Source of the DNA: a virus
Direction: 5' to 3' (one strand)
Length of the DNA: 23,062 nt
IMG/VR virus record: IMGVR_UViG_3300031759_000148
Span: 1-23,062 of that record
The notes under the pieces are model-generated. The model saw only the letters and a list, made by a program, of their open reading frames with translations. It did no database searches and had not been told where the DNA came from. A program made the translations under genes and the position numbers. How positions within the stretch are numbered: the stretch's first letter is position 1; every line of letters starts with the position of its first letter. Shown piece after piece: positions 7,817 to 19,763 of this stretch.

Positions 7817-8490
7817 TGGCCGAAACTCGGAACCACGGGCGCGGTTGTTGTCCAATCAATTGATTGAGTGACGTTTCCTGCGCTCACTTGAACGCCTGCA
7901 CCGATTTTGGACATCAGCTGATTTTGAGCAGCTTGCAGAGATTGCGCCGTCAAGAGAGGCTGGACAAAGTCCCATTGCCAGCGGTCTTGGGGTCGGCCTG
8001 GGTCGCCTTCAGAAATGTCCTTGAAAGAGGTCAAGATGCAATTGAAATAGGTGCCGGACGGGGTAAGGACGGTGTAAGTGCCGCCCAACGCCGTGTGGGA
8101 TTGGATCGTCGTTTTCAGCGTGTTGAAAACCGCCGACTTGGCATTGTATCCGCCCGCGCTTTTGACGGGGGCCAGCATCAACAGGGAAATCCGCAAAGGC
8201 TGCGCGATCACAGCATTCGCAGCTACCGCCTGATTTGCAAAAGGATATGTTGCGATTTCGTTTTCGGCCAAGGTCGACCCCGACATCGGGTAAAAATCAA
8301 AATACCAAGTGTCGAGTGCCAGAGGATTCACATAAGTTGGAATGCTTTGATATTCTGTCGACTGGGTGATGGCGATGATCGGGATGCCGGTGTCCGCTGT
8401 GCCGCCCACGCTGGTCGCTGCCGCGATACCTCCTGTGAAGAGGATAGGCGACTTTTGAAACTGAAGGGTGAAGGAATTGCGGTCGGTCAT
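7813..8490 (-). CDS. Tail/baseplate adaptor protein (Dit-like conserved)
   Basis: ATG 8490 overlaps the tape-measure stop by one base (TGATG). The 225-residue protein has NSFTLQFQKSPILFTGGIA, a beta-rich N-terminal domain with PIIAITQSTEY, the motif TLAENEIATYPFANQAVAAN followed by AVIAQPLRISLLMLAP, then TLKTTIQSHTALGGTYTVLT and a C-terminal helix (LTAQSLQAAQNQLMSKIGAG). This arrangement is widely conserved directly after the tape measure in simple myoviruses, and I take it as the ring that joins tube to baseplate. Dit-like is a structural analogy from position and beta content, not a confirmed family match. Confidence 0.7.
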   Translation of the reverse strand: MTDRNSFTLQFQKSPILFTGGIAAATSVGGTADTGIPIIAITQSTEYQSIPTYVNPLALDTWYFDFYPMSGSTLAENEIATYPFANQAVAANAVIAQPLRISLLMLAPVKSAGGYNAKSAVFNTLKTTIQSHTALGGTYTVLTPSGTYFNCILTSFKDISEGDPGRPQDRWQWDFVQPLLTAQSLQAAQNQLMSKIGAGVQVSAGNVTQSIDWTTTAPVVPSFGQ

Positions 8491-10361
8491 CAGACGGCAT
8501 TATACGCTGCAACGCCACGGGCGCTGATGTTGAACTCATTCCCAACCATCGAACGAATCAGCAGACTGCTTTTGTCCTGGGCGCTGGGATAGTAGGCCGA
8601 CTTGGTCGGGGTCATCGGCCCGTTTCCCGTGTCAGGCGTCTTCGCATTATCGTCGGCGGAAGGAGGTCTCAGGGGTTCTGGCGGGGTCCATCCAACCGGC
8701 GGGTAAGCGAAGGCCTCTCCAAAATAGCCGCGTTTAGCGGCGTCAATGCGTCTCTGTTTTTCGTCTTCGCTCGAAGAAACGAATAGTTTTTCCAAAAGGT
8801 TAGAGGCACCCATTATATCATTCGGGTCCCAACTTTTCAGGGTCATTTTGAGATTAGGGTTCTTATTAATTTCATAAATGGCAAAGGCGTCTTGCTGGGC
8901 GCGCGTTGCCTTCTGAATGTCAGTGCTTGGCAGTTTGTTTTTCTTCGCCCACTCAGCAAAATTCTTTTGGCGATCAGGGCTCCAGTTAATCAGACCCGCA
9001 TAGCCATATTTGTTCTTCGATTTGGTATCCAGGGAGCTTTCGTAATAGGCATGGCCAACCATGGCAGCTGCCACGGACTTAGGAAATCCTGCCGCCTCAA
9101 AGTCCGACATGACGTCTTTTGCTGTTTTCAGCTGAGTTGCCGACAGCTTTTTGACTTCTTCCCGGCCCTTGTCCTTGGCTTCGCGAACGTCCCTCGGTTC
9201 AATCATGTGAAGGAATTCGAGAAGTTTCAAAAGTCCGTCGGCAACTTCTTCAAACTTATCGCCGAGCTTGGCAAGGTTTTCTTTAAAGTCGATCATGTCC
9301 TTTTTGAACCCGCCGCTTTTCAGGTAATCGCCAAATGCGGTGATCGCTTTTTTGGCGCGATCAATCCAATCCTTGAAAAAGTCCGACTTGGTTATGTCTT
9401 TGACCATGCTGACAAACGCCTTTGCCAATTCGGTCAAAGGCGGCAGAAGGCCCGTTAACGCATTCATGAAAACGGTTTCGAGTTCGCTGCTCGCTTTAGC
9501 GATCGCGACCGAAAAATTCCGAGAAGCTTCGATTGTCTTAGCTTGGGGCTGGAGGTCTGCAGCCATTCCCGGAATGGTGCGGGTCGCTTCGCCGACGGCT
9601 TTCCGTTGAGACGAGAGAGACCGAAGGTCTTCCATTGACAACCCGAGGGTCGCAAAACCAAGGGCTTCATATTCCGGTTGGGTTTTGGTGCTCTTTTCCC
9701 AGGCAGCAATGGCTTTGTTTAGCGTTTCAATCGCCAGAGACGCCGTGTCTTTCTTTTCGACGTCCGAAATGCCAATCCGGCCAAAAACAGACCTGCCAAT
9801 GCCGGGGTCGGCTTTCGCTGCCGCGATGCTTTCCAGATAGCTTTCTGGGCTGGCCAAGAAAGGCCGCAGGCCGATGCCAAAAGCCGCACGTTGCCCGACG
9901 TTGACGCCAACGCCCGCTGCCGCACGCTGGGCGTCAGTGATGCCAGCCGCTGCACGGCCCAGGCCAAAACCGCCCAGAACAGTTCCGACAACGGCCGTGA
10001 TGCTAAACATTTCGGCGAGGCGGGCCGCTCCTTGGGTCAGGGTCTTGGCGACGGCGCTGGCCGCTTGTTTGGCGTCATCCAAACGCTTTTTCTGCTGCTT
10101 GCGTTCGTCGTCCAGGCGTTTGCGCGTTTGAGCCGCGCGTTGCTCTTCGTCCTCTTGAAGTTGAAGGGCGATTTCGTGCTGTTTTTCCAGTTCTTCGGTG
10201 ACGTGCTTCGTCGCCAAAGCTGAAGCGGCCACGGACGCGCTTGTGTCGTCCCACGCCCCCGGCATTGATTTTAGAGCGGATTGATACTTTTCGAACGCAG
10301 CGATGAAGGCCTTAAACTTCTCGTCGTTGACGTCGATGTCGATGACGGATTTCACTGCCAA
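8490..10361 (-). CDS. Tail tape measure protein with embedded tail-lysozyme domain
   Basis: I accept the TTG start at 10361 because AGGAG lies 7 bases upstream; a GTG two codons later would have a 13-base gap. The 623-residue protein has a charged coiled coil (residues about 53-108), a glycine/alanine hydrophobic segment (about 117-140, MFSITAVVGTVLGGFGLG), helical repeats, and at about 400-500 a phage tail-lysozyme domain (PF18013 type). The latter has VAAAMVGHAYYESSLD, with Glu441 as the probable catalytic acid, then YGYAGLINWSPDRQKNF. The C-terminus (552-623) is proline-rich then polar. The protein sets tail length and probably locally cuts peptidoglycan during DNA entry. The length is short for a tape measure, so a tail of roughly 90 nm is expected by the usual length rule. 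Confidence 0.92.
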   Translation of the reverse strand: MAVKSVIDIDVNDEKFKAFIAAFEKYQSALKSMPGAWDDTSASVAASALATKHVTEELEKQHEIALQLQEDEEQRAAQTRKRLDDERKQQKKRLDDAKQAASAVAKTLTQGAARLAEMFSITAVVGTVLGGFGLGRAAAGITDAQRAAAGVGVNVGQRAAFGIGLRPFLASPESYLESIAAAKADPGIGRSVFGRIGISDVEKKDTASLAIETLNKAIAAWEKSTKTQPEYEALGFATLGLSMEDLRSLSSQRKAVGEATRTIPGMAADLQPQAKTIEASRNFSVAIAKASSELETVFMNALTGLLPPLTELAKAFVSMVKDITKSDFFKDWIDRAKKAITAFGDYLKSGGFKKDMIDFKENLAKLGDKFEEVADGLLKLLEFLHMIEPRDVREAKDKGREEVKKLSATQLKTAKDVMSDFEAAGFPKSVAAAMVGHAYYESSLDTKSKNKYGYAGLINWSPDRQKNFAEWAKKNKLPSTDIQKATRAQQDAFAIYEINKNPNLKMTLKSWDPNDIMGASNLLEKLFVSSSEDEKQRRIDAAKRGYFGEAFAYPPVGWTPPEPLRPPSADDNAKTPDTGNGPMTPTKSAYYPSAQDKSSLLIRSMVGNEFNISARGVAAYNAV

Positions 10362-10376
10362 GGGTGCGCTCCTAAA
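10362..10376 (-). promoter_or_regulatory. Ribosome-binding site deciding the TTG start of the tape measure
   Basis: The minus-strand sequence TTTAGGAGCGCACCC precedes the TTG at 10361. AGGAG (10369-10373) sits 7 bases before TTG. The TAG stop of the frameshifted chaperone product (10372-10374) overlaps this site, so ribosomes finishing the frameshift product end on top of the tape-measure ribosome-binding site. Confidence 0.7.
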
Positions 10377-11057
10377 TACGGCGGGCGAGTAGGTAACGCT
10401 GCCGGAACTCGACGGCAGAACTATAGCTTGTTCCTACGAGTTCCGCGAGGTCTGGCCAGCCGTCCTCAACCAACCAAGTCAGCGCGGAATGGAGGACGCT
10501 GTTGCCTTCTCGCCAGTATTCTCTTCCGGCTTCGATGTCGGCAAAGAGCTTTGGTAGTCGATAAGCGACAAGGACGTCGTGGAGGCCCCGAATATTCCAA
10601 AGATCATCGACATCAAAGCGTCCGCTTCGCGCTTTCGCATTGAGGCACAGCCCACAATAAAAAAAGTCACGGCGTTCTCGACCTCATCAGCGTCATCGGC
10701 AGAGAACAGATTTTTTCTGACCGCCTGCTCGAGAGGGACGTGGTCCCACCCTTGATCCGTCATGACGAGAACAGTGGACAGGCGGCGAATTTCCGCCAGG
10801 AGCCCGTTTTGGACGCCTTCTGGTCCTTCCCAAGAGCCATCGGCTTCAGCCACGCGCTTGAGCATCATCTTGGCCACGCGCGGACCCATGCGCACCAGCC
10901 ATTCGCCGCCGTTTTCGAGCATGGCGGCGTAGGTTTTTGAGATGGTCAGGAAGTACCGCTCAAAAACGTCTTTGCTGATCGGTGAAGAGTAGACGTAGGC
11001 ATCGCCCTCATCCCTCTCCACCGTCAGAACCAAGTTCAAGTTCCGATCGATTTTCAT
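10372..11057 (-). CDS. Tail assembly chaperone, -1 frameshift form (gpGT-like), 228 aa
   Basis: Translation from ATG 11057 runs 133 codons to the slippery T_TTT_TTT at 10659-10665. A -1 slip then reads codons from base 10659 for 95 residues (YCGLCLNAKARSGRFDVDDL, WNIRGLHDVLVAYRLPKLFA ... RQRYLLARRI) and stops at TAG 10374-10372. The extension is open across the whole interval, has four tryptophans and charged helices, and has no independent start or ribosome-binding site. It fills the otherwise unexplained 117-base gap before the tape measure. This is the G/GT arrangement known from lambda and many other tailed phages. The product is predicted from sequence only. Confidence 0.85.
10479..11057 (-). 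CDS. Tail assembly chaperone, unshifted form (gpG-like), 192 aa
   Basis: ATG 11057 opens a 192-residue protein (MKIDRNLNLVLTVERDEGDA). It lies between the tail tube and the tape measure, the standard location of the tail assembly chaperone. It is helical and mostly soluble (VFERYFLTISKTYAAMLENG; MGPRVAKMMLKRVAEADGSW) with an acidic DADEVENAV before the slippery site. After the slip point the unshifted frame continues 59 codons (IVGCASMRKREADALMSMIF ...) to a serine, threonine and lysine-rich end. These chaperones bind the tape measure to direct tube polymerisation and are absent from the virion. The ribosome-binding site is weak (GGGC). No sequence family is recognised; position and the frameshift signal carry the call. 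Confidence 0.85.
   Translation of the reverse strand: MKIDRNLNLVLTVERDEGDAYVYSSPISKDVFERYFLTISKTYAAMLENGGEWLVRMGPRVAKMMLKRVAEADGSWEGPEGVQNGLLAEIRRLSTVLVMTDQGWDHVPLEQAVRKNLFSADDADEVENAVTFFIVGCASMRKREADALMSMIFGIFGASTTSLSLIDYQSSLPTSKPEENTGEKATASSIPR
10659..10665 (-). other. Programmed -1 ribosomal frameshift site (T_TTT_TTT)
   Basis: The unshifted codons here are ACT TTT TTT ATT, so the seven-T run is an ideal X_XXY_YYZ heptamer in which both tRNAs can re-pair after slipping back one base. A GAGGT (10681-10685), which could act as a Shine-Dalgarno-like stimulator, lies 15 bases upstream. I see no convincing strong hairpin immediately downstream. Confidence 0.85.
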
Positions 11058-11083: not shown

Positions 11084-11527
11084 CTAGGTCGCGTTGAACA
11101 GTGCCGCATTGACCAGATAGAAGCCTCGGAACGTGACCATGAAGCCCACGTTTTTGCCATTCAAGCGCCCCGGAGAGGCCTGAATGATAGCCCCGTTTTG
11201 AATCTGGTAGTTGCTGAGCGTGCTGGCGTCCGGACGGACCACAAAGGGGCCGACCGTGGACAGAACTTCCAGCTGGTTCTTGAAAAGATCGCTGAAGGAC
11301 TGCGTTTTCAGCAGTTCTACTTCGACCGTCATCATTTGGTACGGGGCCGGGGACTGTACGGTTCCGGTCATCGTGCCGAAGGTCTCGACGATCTCGCCTT
11401 CCGGCGTGATGTTGATGCCCTCCTCGCCCATATAGGGCGCGGTGATGTTCAGCTGGGGAAAAAGAGGAAACGTGATGGAGCCCCGAAGGCGATTCAGCGT
11501 TCCCTGCGCGACAAGAGGAGATGCCAT
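11084..11527 (-). CDS. Tail tube protein
   Basis: ATG 11527 has TAAGGAAC about 9 bases upstream, and the gene lies 10 bases after the sheath gene. The 147-residue protein begins MASPLVAQGTLNRLRGSITF and has TFGTMTGTVQSPAPYQMMTV, then EVELLKTQSFSDLFKNQLEV and NGAIIQASPGRLNGKNVGFM. Length, the alternating beta strands, the sheath-then-tube order and the following chaperone and tape-measure genes identify it as the hexameric-ring subunit of the inner tail tube, comparable in role to P2 FII and T4 gp19. The exact family is not certain by eye. Confidence 0.88.
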   Translation of the reverse strand: MASPLVAQGTLNRLRGSITFPLFPQLNITAPYMGEEGINITPEGEIVETFGTMTGTVQSPAPYQMMTVEVELLKTQSFSDLFKNQLEVLSTVGPFVVRPDASTLSNYQIQNGAIIQASPGRLNGKNVGFMVTFRGFYLVNAALFNAT

Positions 11528-11537
11528 TTCGGGTTCC

Positions 11538-12911
11538 TTAGACGAAGTTGGTGACGTTCAGAGCGACGATGATCTGTTCGAAGCCGCGCGCCGGGGTAAA
11601 GATGGCCGAGAGACCAGCATACCTTCCGATTGCATAATCGTTCGGGTTTTCAGCAATGTAGACCGAGAACGGTTCGGCGTTGATCACCAGTTGGTTTGTG
11701 TACAGACCCGCTTGGAAGTTTTGAACGAACATCGAAGTCGGCAGTTGGGTCTGATTCACCGAGCCGATCGCGAGGCCATAGGTCACGGCGCTGGAGAAGG
11801 TCCGCGTTGCGGTGTCTTGAAGGACATTGATGCCATTTTGATCAAACAGCAGCGGCGCGAGCGGATTGTTTGACCCATTGATGACCGCGTTGGAAAGCGA
11901 CAGGTCGGTGTTGATTTGCGACCAATCGACCGAGTACCAGTAGTTGAACGGGTTCCCGTCCATCGTATGGCCCCAGAACAGCACCGAAGTGCTGATGCCA
12001 CCCTCCGCACCCGTGCCAACGATATTGATGTTCGCCGCTTTCAGGGTCGACAGAAGAGCCGCGTTTCCACGCACCGGGTACGGTGTCACGCCGTACAAAT
12101 AAGCGAACGAAAGCTGGGTGACTTGGTTTGCGCTGCCAGGATTCCAGTTCAGGGTGACATAGAACGGAGCCGCGCAAGAGAACTCACTGGCGGGGGCCGT
12201 CGGCGAGGGGATAAACGCAAAGACGCATTTCATCAGGGCGGTGTAAGACGTATAGGTGCCCGTCGTCGTGGTCACAAAGAAATAGGTCTTGCTGGTCGTC
12301 GCCTCGAAACCCGCCAGGAACGTCAGGAAAGACGAATTGGCGTCCCATTCCTTGGGAACAAGGTATGAATAAACCGTGCCAGGGTTGGCGGTGATCCAGG
12401 ACTGCAAAGCCGAAACGCCCGCCGACGGAGCGCCCTCTCCCAATTCCAGAACGTAAACACTGGTCGCCGCGCCTTGAGCAAAGAAAGTCGTGCCCATGGC
12501 CAGGAGTTCGGCTTCATCGGCCAGGATGACGGTTCCAGGAACCGTGTTCAGGCCAGGGTTTGAAGCCAAGGGATAGGTAACGGTGCTGGTTCCAGTCACG
12601 GTGCCTTGGAAGGTGCCGTTGTAACCAGATGGGGAGGCTCCAGCGACGACGATACCGACCGTGTCACCAAGATTCCAACCGTGCGGGGCGGTGGTGGTGA
12701 TGGTCACGGTGCTGGTAGCCCAGGTCAAAGTAGCAATGGCTTTGGCCGTGGACAGGATCGAGGTCAGGTCGGAAAGCTGGGTCAGGAGCGTGAGAGTTCC
12801 CGGAGCGGTGTTGGTTCCGCCCTGAGAGATGAGCGCGCCAGACCGCTGCAGCGTCGAAGGCGCGGGGGCCTGCTGTTGGGTGACGTTAACGGTGACGATA
12901 TTGTTTGCCAT
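11538..12911 (-). CDS. Contractile tail sheath protein with inserted beta-sandwich domain
   Basis: ATG 12911 has AAGGA 10 bases upstream. The 457-residue protein begins MANNIVTVNVTQQQAPAPST with LQRSGALISQGGTNT. The conserved sheath core is visible: YVLELGEGAPSAGVSALQSW, the alpha/beta repeats YFFVTTTTGTY, NPFNYWYSVDWSQINTDLSL, LLFDQNGINVLQDTATRTFS, and the C-terminal domain AIFTPARGFEQIIVALNVTNFV, whose last strand joins the sheath mesh. Residues about 58-130 hold an extra module (ATLTWATSTVTITTTAPHGW; GASPSGYNGTFQGTV) that is not part of the minimal sheath fold and probably projects outward. The sheath contracts to drive the tube through the cell envelope. Confidence 0.93.
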   Translation of the reverse strand: MANNIVTVNVTQQQAPAPSTLQRSGALISQGGTNTAPGTLTLLTQLSDLTSILSTAKAIATLTWATSTVTITTTAPHGWNLGDTVGIVVAGASPSGYNGTFQGTVTGTSTVTYPLASNPGLNTVPGTVILADEAELLAMGTTFFAQGAATSVYVLELGEGAPSAGVSALQSWITANPGTVYSYLVPKEWDANSSFLTFLAGFEATTSKTYFFVTTTTGTYTSYTALMKCVFAFIPSPTAPASEFSCAAPFYVTLNWNPGSANQVTQLSFAYLYGVTPYPVRGNAALLSTLKAANINIVGTGAEGGISTSVLFWGHTMDGNPFNYWYSVDWSQINTDLSLSNAVINGSNNPLAPLLFDQNGINVLQDTATRTFSSAVTYGLAIGSVNQTQLPTSMFVQNFQAGLYTNQLVINAEPFSVYIAENPNDYAIGRYAGLSAIFTPARGFEQIIVALNVTNFV

Positions 12912-17820: not shown

Positions 17821-18603
17821 TTAGTTCTTGGTCACGCCGACGAGACGACGGCGGGGAGCCGCATGGCTACCCATCCAGGCGCGGGGTTCGCCGACGAAGG
17901 TCGAGATGATGCGGCCCGTGGTGTCAGGACGCTTCATTTCGCGCAGAGCGCCACGGGGCAGATCGACCGGCGACATGGCGGCAGCCATGGCGTCCGAATA
18001 GATTTGCTCTTCCATGTAACCGAAGGCCACCGAGTCGACGATCTTGCCGAGGTTGACTTCCTTCAGCTTGGCGCTGTGCTTTTGCAGGCCACGGGCCAGA
18101 CGGCGACGATAGGCCATCAGACCTTCGCCATTCAGCGGACGCGGGGCGCTATCGCCGAAGGCTTGATAGACGCTGTCGGCCTTGGCTTGGGCGTCAGAGA
18201 ACTTGGCGTATTCGGCGTCGGACAGCTGCTTGGGCAGCATACGTTCGACATCGGCGATACGCTTGCGGATATCGGCAGCGTCAGCAGCCTTCATCTCTTC
18301 CTCTTCAGCGTCCTTGCGCTTCTTGTCAGCGGCGACGCGCTTGGGCTCTTCTTCGAACTCTTCCATTTCAGCGTCGTCGTCATCGTCGTCCGACTTGGCT
18401 TCCACTTCTTCGTCGTCAGCCTTGGCGTCGTCGTCATCGTCGTCGCAGGCTTCTTCGGCGTCGTCGTACTCTTCTTCGGCGTCGTCCTTCGTTTCCATCG
18501 CGTCCATACGCTTGGACAGCGAATCAAGGTGCGACAGAATCTTGTCCAGCTTTTCGCCAGCTTCGGCGTCAGCCTTGTGCTCTTCCATATGCTCTTCGGC
18601 CAT
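17821..18603 (-). CDS. Acidic capsid scaffold-like protein
   Basis: ATG 18603 has GGAG about 9 bases upstream. The 260-residue protein begins MAEEHMEEHKADAEAGEKLD. Residues 14-40 form a helix (KILSHLDSLSKRMDAMETKD). Residues 40-85 are extremely acidic with two DDDDDDA runs, then basic/acidic helices (PKRVAADKKRKDAEEEEMKA; IRKRIADVERMLPKQLSDAE). The C-terminal half is more globular and basic (ALREMKRPDTTGRIISTFVG, APRRRLVGVTKN). Strong charge, helical content, location between the protease and the capsid genes and the basic C-terminus (typical capsid-binding end) fit a scaffold. RMDA and RKDA motifs may be protease sites. No family name is certain. Confidence 0.75.
   Translation of the reverse strand: MAEEHMEEHKADAEAGEKLDKILSHLDSLSKRMDAMETKDDAEEEYDDAEEACDDDDDDAKADDEEVEAKSDDDDDDAEMEEFEEEPKRVAADKKRKDAEEEEMKAADAADIRKRIADVERMLPKQLSDAEYAKFSDAQAKADSVYQAFGDSAPRPLNGEGLMAYRRRLARGLQKHSAKLKEVNLGKIVDSVAFGYMEEQIYSDAMAAAMSPVDLPRGALREMKRPDTTGRIISTFVGEPRAWMGSHAAPRRRLVGVTKN
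18371..18444. repeat. 20-bp direct repeat encoding Asp6-Ala
   Basis: GCGTCGTCGTCATCGTCGTC occurs at 18371-18390 and again at 18425-18444, 54 bases (18 codons) apart and in frame. On the coding strand both give six aspartates flanked by alanine in the scaffold-like protein. Further GTC/TTC-rich near-repeats flank it. This probably arose by slippage in a GAC-rich tract. Confidence 0.85.
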
Positions 18604-18629: not shown

Positions 18630-19763
18630 TTAACGGCGTCTTTGGGAGACGTAGTTGCTCATACGAATGTCAAGCAGTTGAAGGCTCTGCCCCAATCGGT
18701 GAAGTTTGATTGGGTCCAGTATACTCTTTTCTCTGCCAGTTTGTGAATCCACGCGGACATCGGTTCCATTTTGGTCGACGCCAGCAAGTTCACCACCTTT
18801 GTCCCAAACGCCAGCCCCGTCAGGAAGCACGGCAATATGGTCCAGTAGACTCGGCTTGCCTTCGATGAGGAGAGCCGAACCATCCTCAAGCGTCAACTTG
18901 GAGTTGACGTCGGGATTCTTGAAAACGACAGCAGGAGACGTGCTGGTTGGGCGCGTCGTCATCAACTCAATGGCCGCGTCGTCGTAAACCTTTGCGATAC
19001 CCCAGACCTCGTCGCCTTTGATGTAGGCGAACATGATCGAGCCAATCGTGCGATTGATATATTCTTCGCTGTTCAACGTCGCACTGTCCGGATGTTCCAG
19101 GATCACAGCCAAACCGGCGCAGCGATCGAGGAATTCCTGATTAAGATAGATCAACGGATCGCGGAAAACGAACTCGCCCAAAGACGATCTATAAGCGACA
19201 CCCGTCCCGGTGATCCGCATGGCAAACAGGGACACGTTTTCATATCGCTGGGGACTGACCAGCTGCCCGGCTGCCATGGCTCGGGCAACCCCAAGCTCAT
19301 CCATTGACAGCCGGGCAAGAGCGACAGCGCAACCAGGATGTAGTGGCATCGGCGGCGCGTCGATTGAAGCCCAGGAATAGCCAGTGCTTTCGTCGCAAAT
19401 GGTCACGGCAAAGGATTCAGTGACCCGGCAAATATACGTCGTGAAATCGACCGACTCGCTAGGAGTCGGTTGCACCGGGGAAGCGCCGGAAGGAAGGGTG
19501 TCCTTAGCTTCCCCGGTGGCCATTGCAGGAGCTGGGCACGCCTCCGCAATTCCGCGCGTGTGGAGTTTGATGTGGTCAACGTCGGCCTTGAAGCCGGTTT
19601 CCTCAAACGCTTCACGAATGGCGCATTCTTCGATCGTCTCGCCGTCTTCCTGCTTCCCACCGGGGAAAGCCCATTCATTGGGGTGATCGCCGCCGTTCCC
19701 GCGATGAGTAAACAACGCGAGATTGTCGGGGGTCAGGAAGAGGATGCCAGACGCTTTGATCAT
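18630..19763 (-). CDS. Nudix hydrolase - prohead protease (DUF2213) fusion
   Basis: ATG 19763 is in an ATGA overlap with the 550-aa gene. The protein is 377 residues. Residues 1-150 are a Nudix domain with a complete box at 36-58: G-x5-E-x7-REAFEETGF, preceded by NEWAFPGGKQ. A proline-rich insertion (about 73-106) interrupts it. Residues about 170-320 are a DUF2213 prohead-protease-like domain: RYENVSLFAMRITGTGVAYR, VILEHPDSATLNSEEYINRT (His224), IAKVYDDAAIELMTTRPTST, S-P-A-V-V-F (Ser276) and LLDHIAVLPDGAGVW (His309). His and Ser fit a serine protease. The tail has RVDS (about 327-330), like motifs in neighbouring head proteins. The Nudix substrate is unknown; the protease should mature the prohead. 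Confidence 0.9.
   Translation of the reverse strand: MIKASGILFLTPDNLALFTHRGNGGDHPNEWAFPGGKQEDGETIEECAIREAFEETGFKADVDHIKLHTRGIAEACPAPAMATGEAKDTLPSGASPVQPTPSESVDFTTYICRVTESFAVTICDESTGYSWASIDAPPMPLHPGCAVALARLSMDELGVARAMAAGQLVSPQRYENVSLFAMRITGTGVAYRSSLGEFVFRDPLIYLNQEFLDRCAGLAVILEHPDSATLNSEEYINRTIGSIMFAYIKGDEVWGIAKVYDDAAIELMTTRPTSTSPAVVFKNPDVNSKLTLEDGSALLIEGKPSLLDHIAVLPDGAGVWDKGGELAGVDQNGTDVRVDSQTGREKSILDPIKLHRLGQSLQLLDIRMSNYVSQRRR

Follow-up and report, generated by a model that had tools for sequence, protein, structure and literature searches.

A probable -1 frameshift locus upstream of the tape measure gene in contractile-tailed phages, with a probable tail assembly chaperone pair and a long overlap of its two reading frames

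Does a single gene, lying directly upstream of the tape measure gene and downstream of a probable tail tube gene in the IMG/VR virus record IMGVR_UViG_3300031759_000148, give rise to one protein or to two? The window, meaning the whole stretch of 23,062 nucleotides (nt) that was analysed, had been read in the initial annotation as carrying an unannotated -1 programmed frameshift in this gene, which was named there as a tail chaperone gene. Such frameshifts at tail chaperone genes are known in other tailed phages, and I conclude here, at a probability of roughly 0.93, that the gene makes two proteins through -1 ribosomal frameshifting at T TTT TTT and that these form a tail assembly chaperone pair of the G/GT type. 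That it is the ribosome which slips I infer, as I do the efficiency of slipping, the stoichiometry of the two products and their binding roles.

The slippery site itself is directly visible in the window (Table 1), where zero-frame codons 131-134 place the seven Ts, read from 10665 to 10659, in exact slippery phase, and where no other run of seven Ts or As exists on either strand. Reading on from 10659 in the -1 frame gives 95 sense codons before a TAG stop at 10374-10372, inside the tape measure ribosome-binding site, which itself (10373-10369) lies 7 nt ahead of the tape measure start TTG at 10361, and the joined product of 133 zero-frame and 95 -1 residues comes to 228 amino acids (aa). The zero frame also stays open for 59 codons beyond the slip, with about 180 bases read in two frames; the coordinates and lengths in the initial annotation were all correct on re-reading. 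The two frames match separate families in PHROGs, phrog_11810 and phrog_14324, neither of which is given a function there. When the zero-frame protein of this window was held fixed and synonymous codons were drawn at random, the -1 frame remained open across the overlap in about 20% of simulations, so the case from one sequence is only moderate and relatives were relied on instead.

A single-sequence scan of genome contigs recovered zero relatives, and a profile search of viral contigs yielded 253 confirmed ones, 80 of which were retrieved. The comparison set comprises 93 loci, corresponding to 69 distinct sequences and to 21 lineages at <70% identity, between which the median pairwise identity of the zero-frame protein is 36%. 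One locus (L002), identical to the window across 6576 bases and maybe from the same phage population, was excluded as an independent lineage. Since one of the search patterns requires Phe-Phe but not TTT, and neither requires an open -1 frame, the tests of conservation are not circular. All 93 loci carry TTT TTT at both Phe codons, in phase, and at that site the short frame connects with a -1 frame further on that is open, homologous and 95-122 codons long; no homologue had a broken -1 frame or lacked the T run, the pattern that the initial annotation had named as telling against a frameshift. Upstream in these genes one Phe codon in three is TTC, and across the genes of the window the figure is 131 of 228; because TTC is this common elsewhere, the invariant TTT pair is not a matter of codon preference. 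The base ahead of the pair is T in 66 of the 69 distinct sequences. Summed over the 21 lineages, the log10 probability of the -1 frame being open by chance is -27, and the -1 extension matched phrog_14324 in 26 of 26 members scanned. The zero frame continues past the slip for 53-86 codons (159-258 nt), for exactly 59 in nine lineages, and is unbroken in all 21 (summed log10 P -19), while in most relatives the -1 stop sits close to the tape measure start, between about -11 and +18 nt from it.

Could the -1 open reading frame (ORF) then be a separate gene with its own start codon? It does stand as its own family in PHROGs, and the record of phage RothD annotates a 34-aa ORF within the -1 stretch, but the first ATG, GTG or TTG in the -1 frame of the window is codon 63, beyond the most conserved part, two lineages have no -1 start codon of any kind, and homology in the -1 frame begins at the slip with an invariant Tyr1, all of which makes an independent gene exceedingly improbable.

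Fourteen phage records encode relatives of the locus; they include Pantoea PdC23, Klebsiella Chronis, RothC and RothD, Yersinia phages, Escherichia Rac-SA53, Actinobacillus pPE4 and Shewanella QDWS, and tblastn places homologous -1 sequence at the same position in Klebsiella, Pantoea, Escherichia and Actinobacillus phages. Eight of the 14 records were inspected, and in them the short-form gene is labelled 'hypothetical protein', with the frameshift unmarked and the long form unannotated. The Rac-SA53 locus is matched, at this DNA similarity, in 90 of 5426 complete E. coli genomes, the laboratory strain E. coli W among them. The prophage of E. coli W (L098, NC_017635 1534390-1535081) has the same slip site and -1 frame, annotated there only as hypothetical protein ECW_RS07650, and would be a handy system for laboratory work.

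Substitutions tell the same two-frame story. Variable columns were counted per zero-frame codon position in eight groups of alignable relatives, and the variable fractions at positions 1, 2 and 3 are 0.125, 0.057 and 0.386 upstream of the slip, 0.098, 0.191 and 0.223 in the overlap, and 0.110, 0.281 and 0.155 downstream of the zero-frame stop, where most of the variation is carried by zero-frame position 2, which is position 3 of the -1 frame. From upstream to overlap the drop at position 3 (Fisher p 8e-11) and the rise at position 2 (p 2e-15) are significant, position 2 differs again between overlap and downstream (p 0.004), and position 1, mostly non-degenerate in both frames, is the lowest within the overlap. 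This periodicity is that of zero-frame coding, then dual coding, then -1 coding; the -1 frame is coding as well as conserved, and its protein is under selection. The first 21 codons of the overlap look dominated by the zero frame (constraint p 0.001) and later codons by the -1 frame; over overlap codons 22-43, position-2 variability is 0.227 against 0.281 in the region coding in the -1 frame only, which is not a significant difference (p 0.23). The programmed frameshift is thus supported by conservation in 93 of 93 loci, by the phrog_14324 family and by substitution rates together. A -1 frame open by mere chance, or a T run that arose through faulty sequencing or assembly of one fused gene, could draw on the roughly 20% of synonymous shuffles, a figure for this sequence alone, but the arrangement is kept in 21 diverged lineages, many samples, cultured phages and E. 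coli prophages, the zero frame too stays open over its 53-86 codons, and the T run with its open, selected -1 frame in diverged relatives refutes this explanation, to which I assign a negligible likelihood.

Furthermore, the RNA downstream of the slip is itself structured in part of the family. A hairpin of up to 12 pairs, starting 5-6 nt after the slip, occurs in two related clades and in L037, and over 19 sequences it covaries, with a score of 0.412 against at most 0.136 when slid, five pairs changed on both sides and one pair occurring as four types. The clades in question hold L016, L022, L025, L027-L030, L032-L034, L004, L005, L056, L067, L077, L085, L090 and L092, and the hairpin, 6-54 nt after the slip, lies within the dual-coded stretch, so that the same bases may serve an RNA structure as well as both reading frames. 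One hairpin common to all clades was considered and rejected, the two-clade register failing in the E. coli, Klebsiella and Yersinia lineages and in that of the window.

This structure bears on who does the slipping. RNA polymerase might slip on the T run, with normal translation of the resulting insertion- or deletion-bearing mRNAs giving the -1 frame, and the seven or eight Ts found in nearly all relatives would suit such a mechanism; however, the -1 frame is preserved in three distinct sequences that have only six Ts (L028, L056 and L069), the phase of the Ts as a heptamer is exact throughout, the covarying hairpin of the two clades stands at the spacing of a ribosomal frameshift stimulator, and bacterial polymerases usually require longer homopolymers to slip. 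Polymerase slippage therefore seems very unlikely, and ribosomal frameshifting is the reading followed below.

What would the two proteins look like? AlphaFold2 was run on an alignment of 26 relatives for the zero-frame protein, with alignments that leave out the sequences of annotated records, and returned a confident fold, with a predicted template modelling score (pTM) of 0.83 and the mean predicted local distance difference test (pLDDT) listed in Table 1. A predicted helix at residues 120-139 spans the slip, and the codons after the slip give a helix (142-155), a strand (158-161) and a further helix (165-171), each of them well predicted; in this model the residues after the slip are part of the confident fold, residues 134-172 being placed in it at high confidence, and residues 177-192, of low confidence, are probably disordered. 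The -1 domain is predicted, at moderate confidence, to be all-helical (mean pLDDT 78). Most ribosomes, then, would stay in the zero frame at T TTT TTT and produce the 192-aa G-like protein, and a minority, with tRNA-Phe in both the P and the A site, would move back by one base, joining the first 133 residues to a 95-residue helical T-like domain and terminating at the tape measure start site. If lambda is a guide, coating of the tape measure may fall to the short form and recruitment of the tube protein to the long form. Since the zero-frame codons after the slip complete the zero-frame domain in the predicted fold, the long product must replace that part: the slip would fall inside the folded domain of the short form, and the long form would exchange both later helices and the strand between them for the T-like domain.

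It is also conceivable that the frameshift occurs but that function resides solely in the -1 domain and the zero-frame core (residues 1-133), with the 59 tail codons of the zero frame open as a side effect of -1 coding. Beyond codon 21 of the overlap, variability at position 2 is, as given above, not significantly under that of the -1-only region, and some motifs of the tail (S-L-P-T-S) share bases with a -1 motif (F-A-D-I-D/E), but the zero-frame constraint on the first 21 codons after the slip, the zero frame that no lineage interrupts, its recurrent length of 59 codons and the high-confidence placement of residues 134-172 make a tail without function unlikely. I lean instead, by a modest degree, towards two overprinted and mutually exclusive C-termini that are both functional, in which the short form would need residues 134-176 for a complete domain, the frameshift would swap in a tube-binding domain encoded on the same bases, and the hairpin would set the ratio of the two forms in some clades. 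The long form would then be more than the short form with an extra piece attached.

Now considering what the pair should be called, the role of tail chaperone proposed in the initial annotation gains from the position of the gene and from a weak fold match, and gains nothing from sequence homology to a known chaperone. Several observations weigh against the reading as a whole and temper it. No sequence match to a named chaperone family was found in Pfam, NCBIfam or PDB; the nearest named fold match, to a 'tail assembly chaperone protein', is weak (Foldseek E 7e-3, TM 0.41/0.49); the window has no significant RNA structure downstream of the slip (z +0.9 over 63 nt, z -1.1 over 101 nt); the first base of the heptamer is C or G in three of the 69 distinct sequences, so re-pairing in the P site would be imperfect there; and substitutions alone do not tell zero-frame selection apart from -1 constraint once the overlap has run for about 21 codons. 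Foldseek gives weak matches, at E 7e-3 and weaker, to several proteins that bear the name tail assembly chaperone, the best viral fold match is an unnamed siphovirus protein (E 1.5e-5), and comparison with solved structures gave no meaningful match to either part. Known chaperone pairs have little sequence in common.

Comparison with known systems shows both the kinship and the departure. The partners in lambda are the tape measure for the short form and the tube for the long form, and neither form is present in the virion (PMC5009743); as in lambda G/GT, the locus stands between the tube and tape measure genes, slips by -1, gives the long form a second domain and has its -1 stop beside the tape measure start, but in lambda the slip, at GGGAAAG, leaves 18 nt of zero frame and the frames overlap by at most 61 nt, whereas here 53-86 codons remain as part of the predicted zero-frame fold, and there is no sequence match. 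The E/E+E' genes in the FETUD operon of P2 share the contractile tail, a T-rich slip (T TTT TTG) and the order sheath, tube, E/E', tape measure, although the P2 frames overlap by at most 34 nt, against 159-258 nt here, and again no sequence match exists. HK97 gp13/gp14 is likewise a -1 frameshift chaperone upstream of the tape measure, with an overlap of at most 49 nt and a non-contractile tail. Similarly, the chaperone locus of Vandenendeviridae and Andersonviridae, exemplified by phage Adele, has an unannotated -1 frameshift at a GTTTTT motif, inferred from an always-open -1 frame (PMC12846349); it too is T-rich and belongs to phages with contractile tails, but of a different family and with a -1 extension slightly >200 bp (PMC12846349). 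A slip near the 3' end of the short frame, typical of lambda, P2 and HK97 and not defining, is absent from the present locus, and the long dual-coded overlap, already noted in the initial annotation, sets it apart from the textbook layout.

The kind is thus already known, the family appears to be unrecognised, and the slip in mid-domain is the variant; a similar layout may already have been described elsewhere. The locus would add a widespread frameshifted tail chaperone family, with cultured members among the phages of Klebsiella, Yersinia, Pantoea, Shewanella and Actinobacillus and with prophages in about 90 E. coli genomes, and it raises the question of whether switching partner obliges the long form to give up some of the fold that the short form has.

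The neighbours of the slip locus include baseplate genes in addition to tail sheath, probable tube and tape measure, and from these I conclude that the phage has a contractile tail; the order sheath, tube, slip gene, tape measure is common to the window and to annotated relatives, and the Yersinia relatives have contractile tails in electron microscopy (PMC9224151).

Table 1. Slip locus and adjoining tail genes, in positions of the window.
Feature	Position	Strand	Remarks
Zero-frame ORF, G-like	10479..11057	minus	192 aa; phrog_11810 match E 2.8e-43; AlphaFold2 mean pLDDT 89
Slippery heptamer T TTT TTT	10659..10665	minus	zero frame ACT TTT TTT ATT, Phe132-Phe133
-1 extension, putative T-like domain	10372..10659	minus	95 codons + TAG; phrog_14324; base 10659 read in both frames
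Dual-coded stretch	10482..10658	minus	zero-frame residues 134-192 and -1 residues 1-59
AGGAG, tape measure ribosome-binding site	10369..10373	minus	overlaps -1 stop; basis, sequence
Tape measure gene	8490..10361	minus	623 aa; phrog_7694 and phrog_9570 'tail length tape measure protein'
Probable tail tube gene	11084..11527	minus	147 aa; phrog_6566, no function assigned; identified by gene order, with sheath and chaperone on either side
Tail sheath gene, contractile tail	11538..12911	minus	phrog_205 tail sheath, E 3.5e-33

Elsewhere in the window, the tape measure protein bears a phage tail lysozyme domain (PF18013, residues 412-546). Two adjacent minus-strand ORFs at 17821-18603 and 18630-19763 match consecutive parts of the 545-aa family phrog_6216, such that what is one protein in relatives seems to be two in the window, the second ORF lying in another frame 26 nt later; the first has a NUDIX domain and a weak match to a head maturation protease, and the second encodes an acidic, scaffold-like protein. 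A tail fibre protein with a C-terminal intramolecular chaperone (Peptidase_S74) is encoded at 1662-2900, also on the minus strand.
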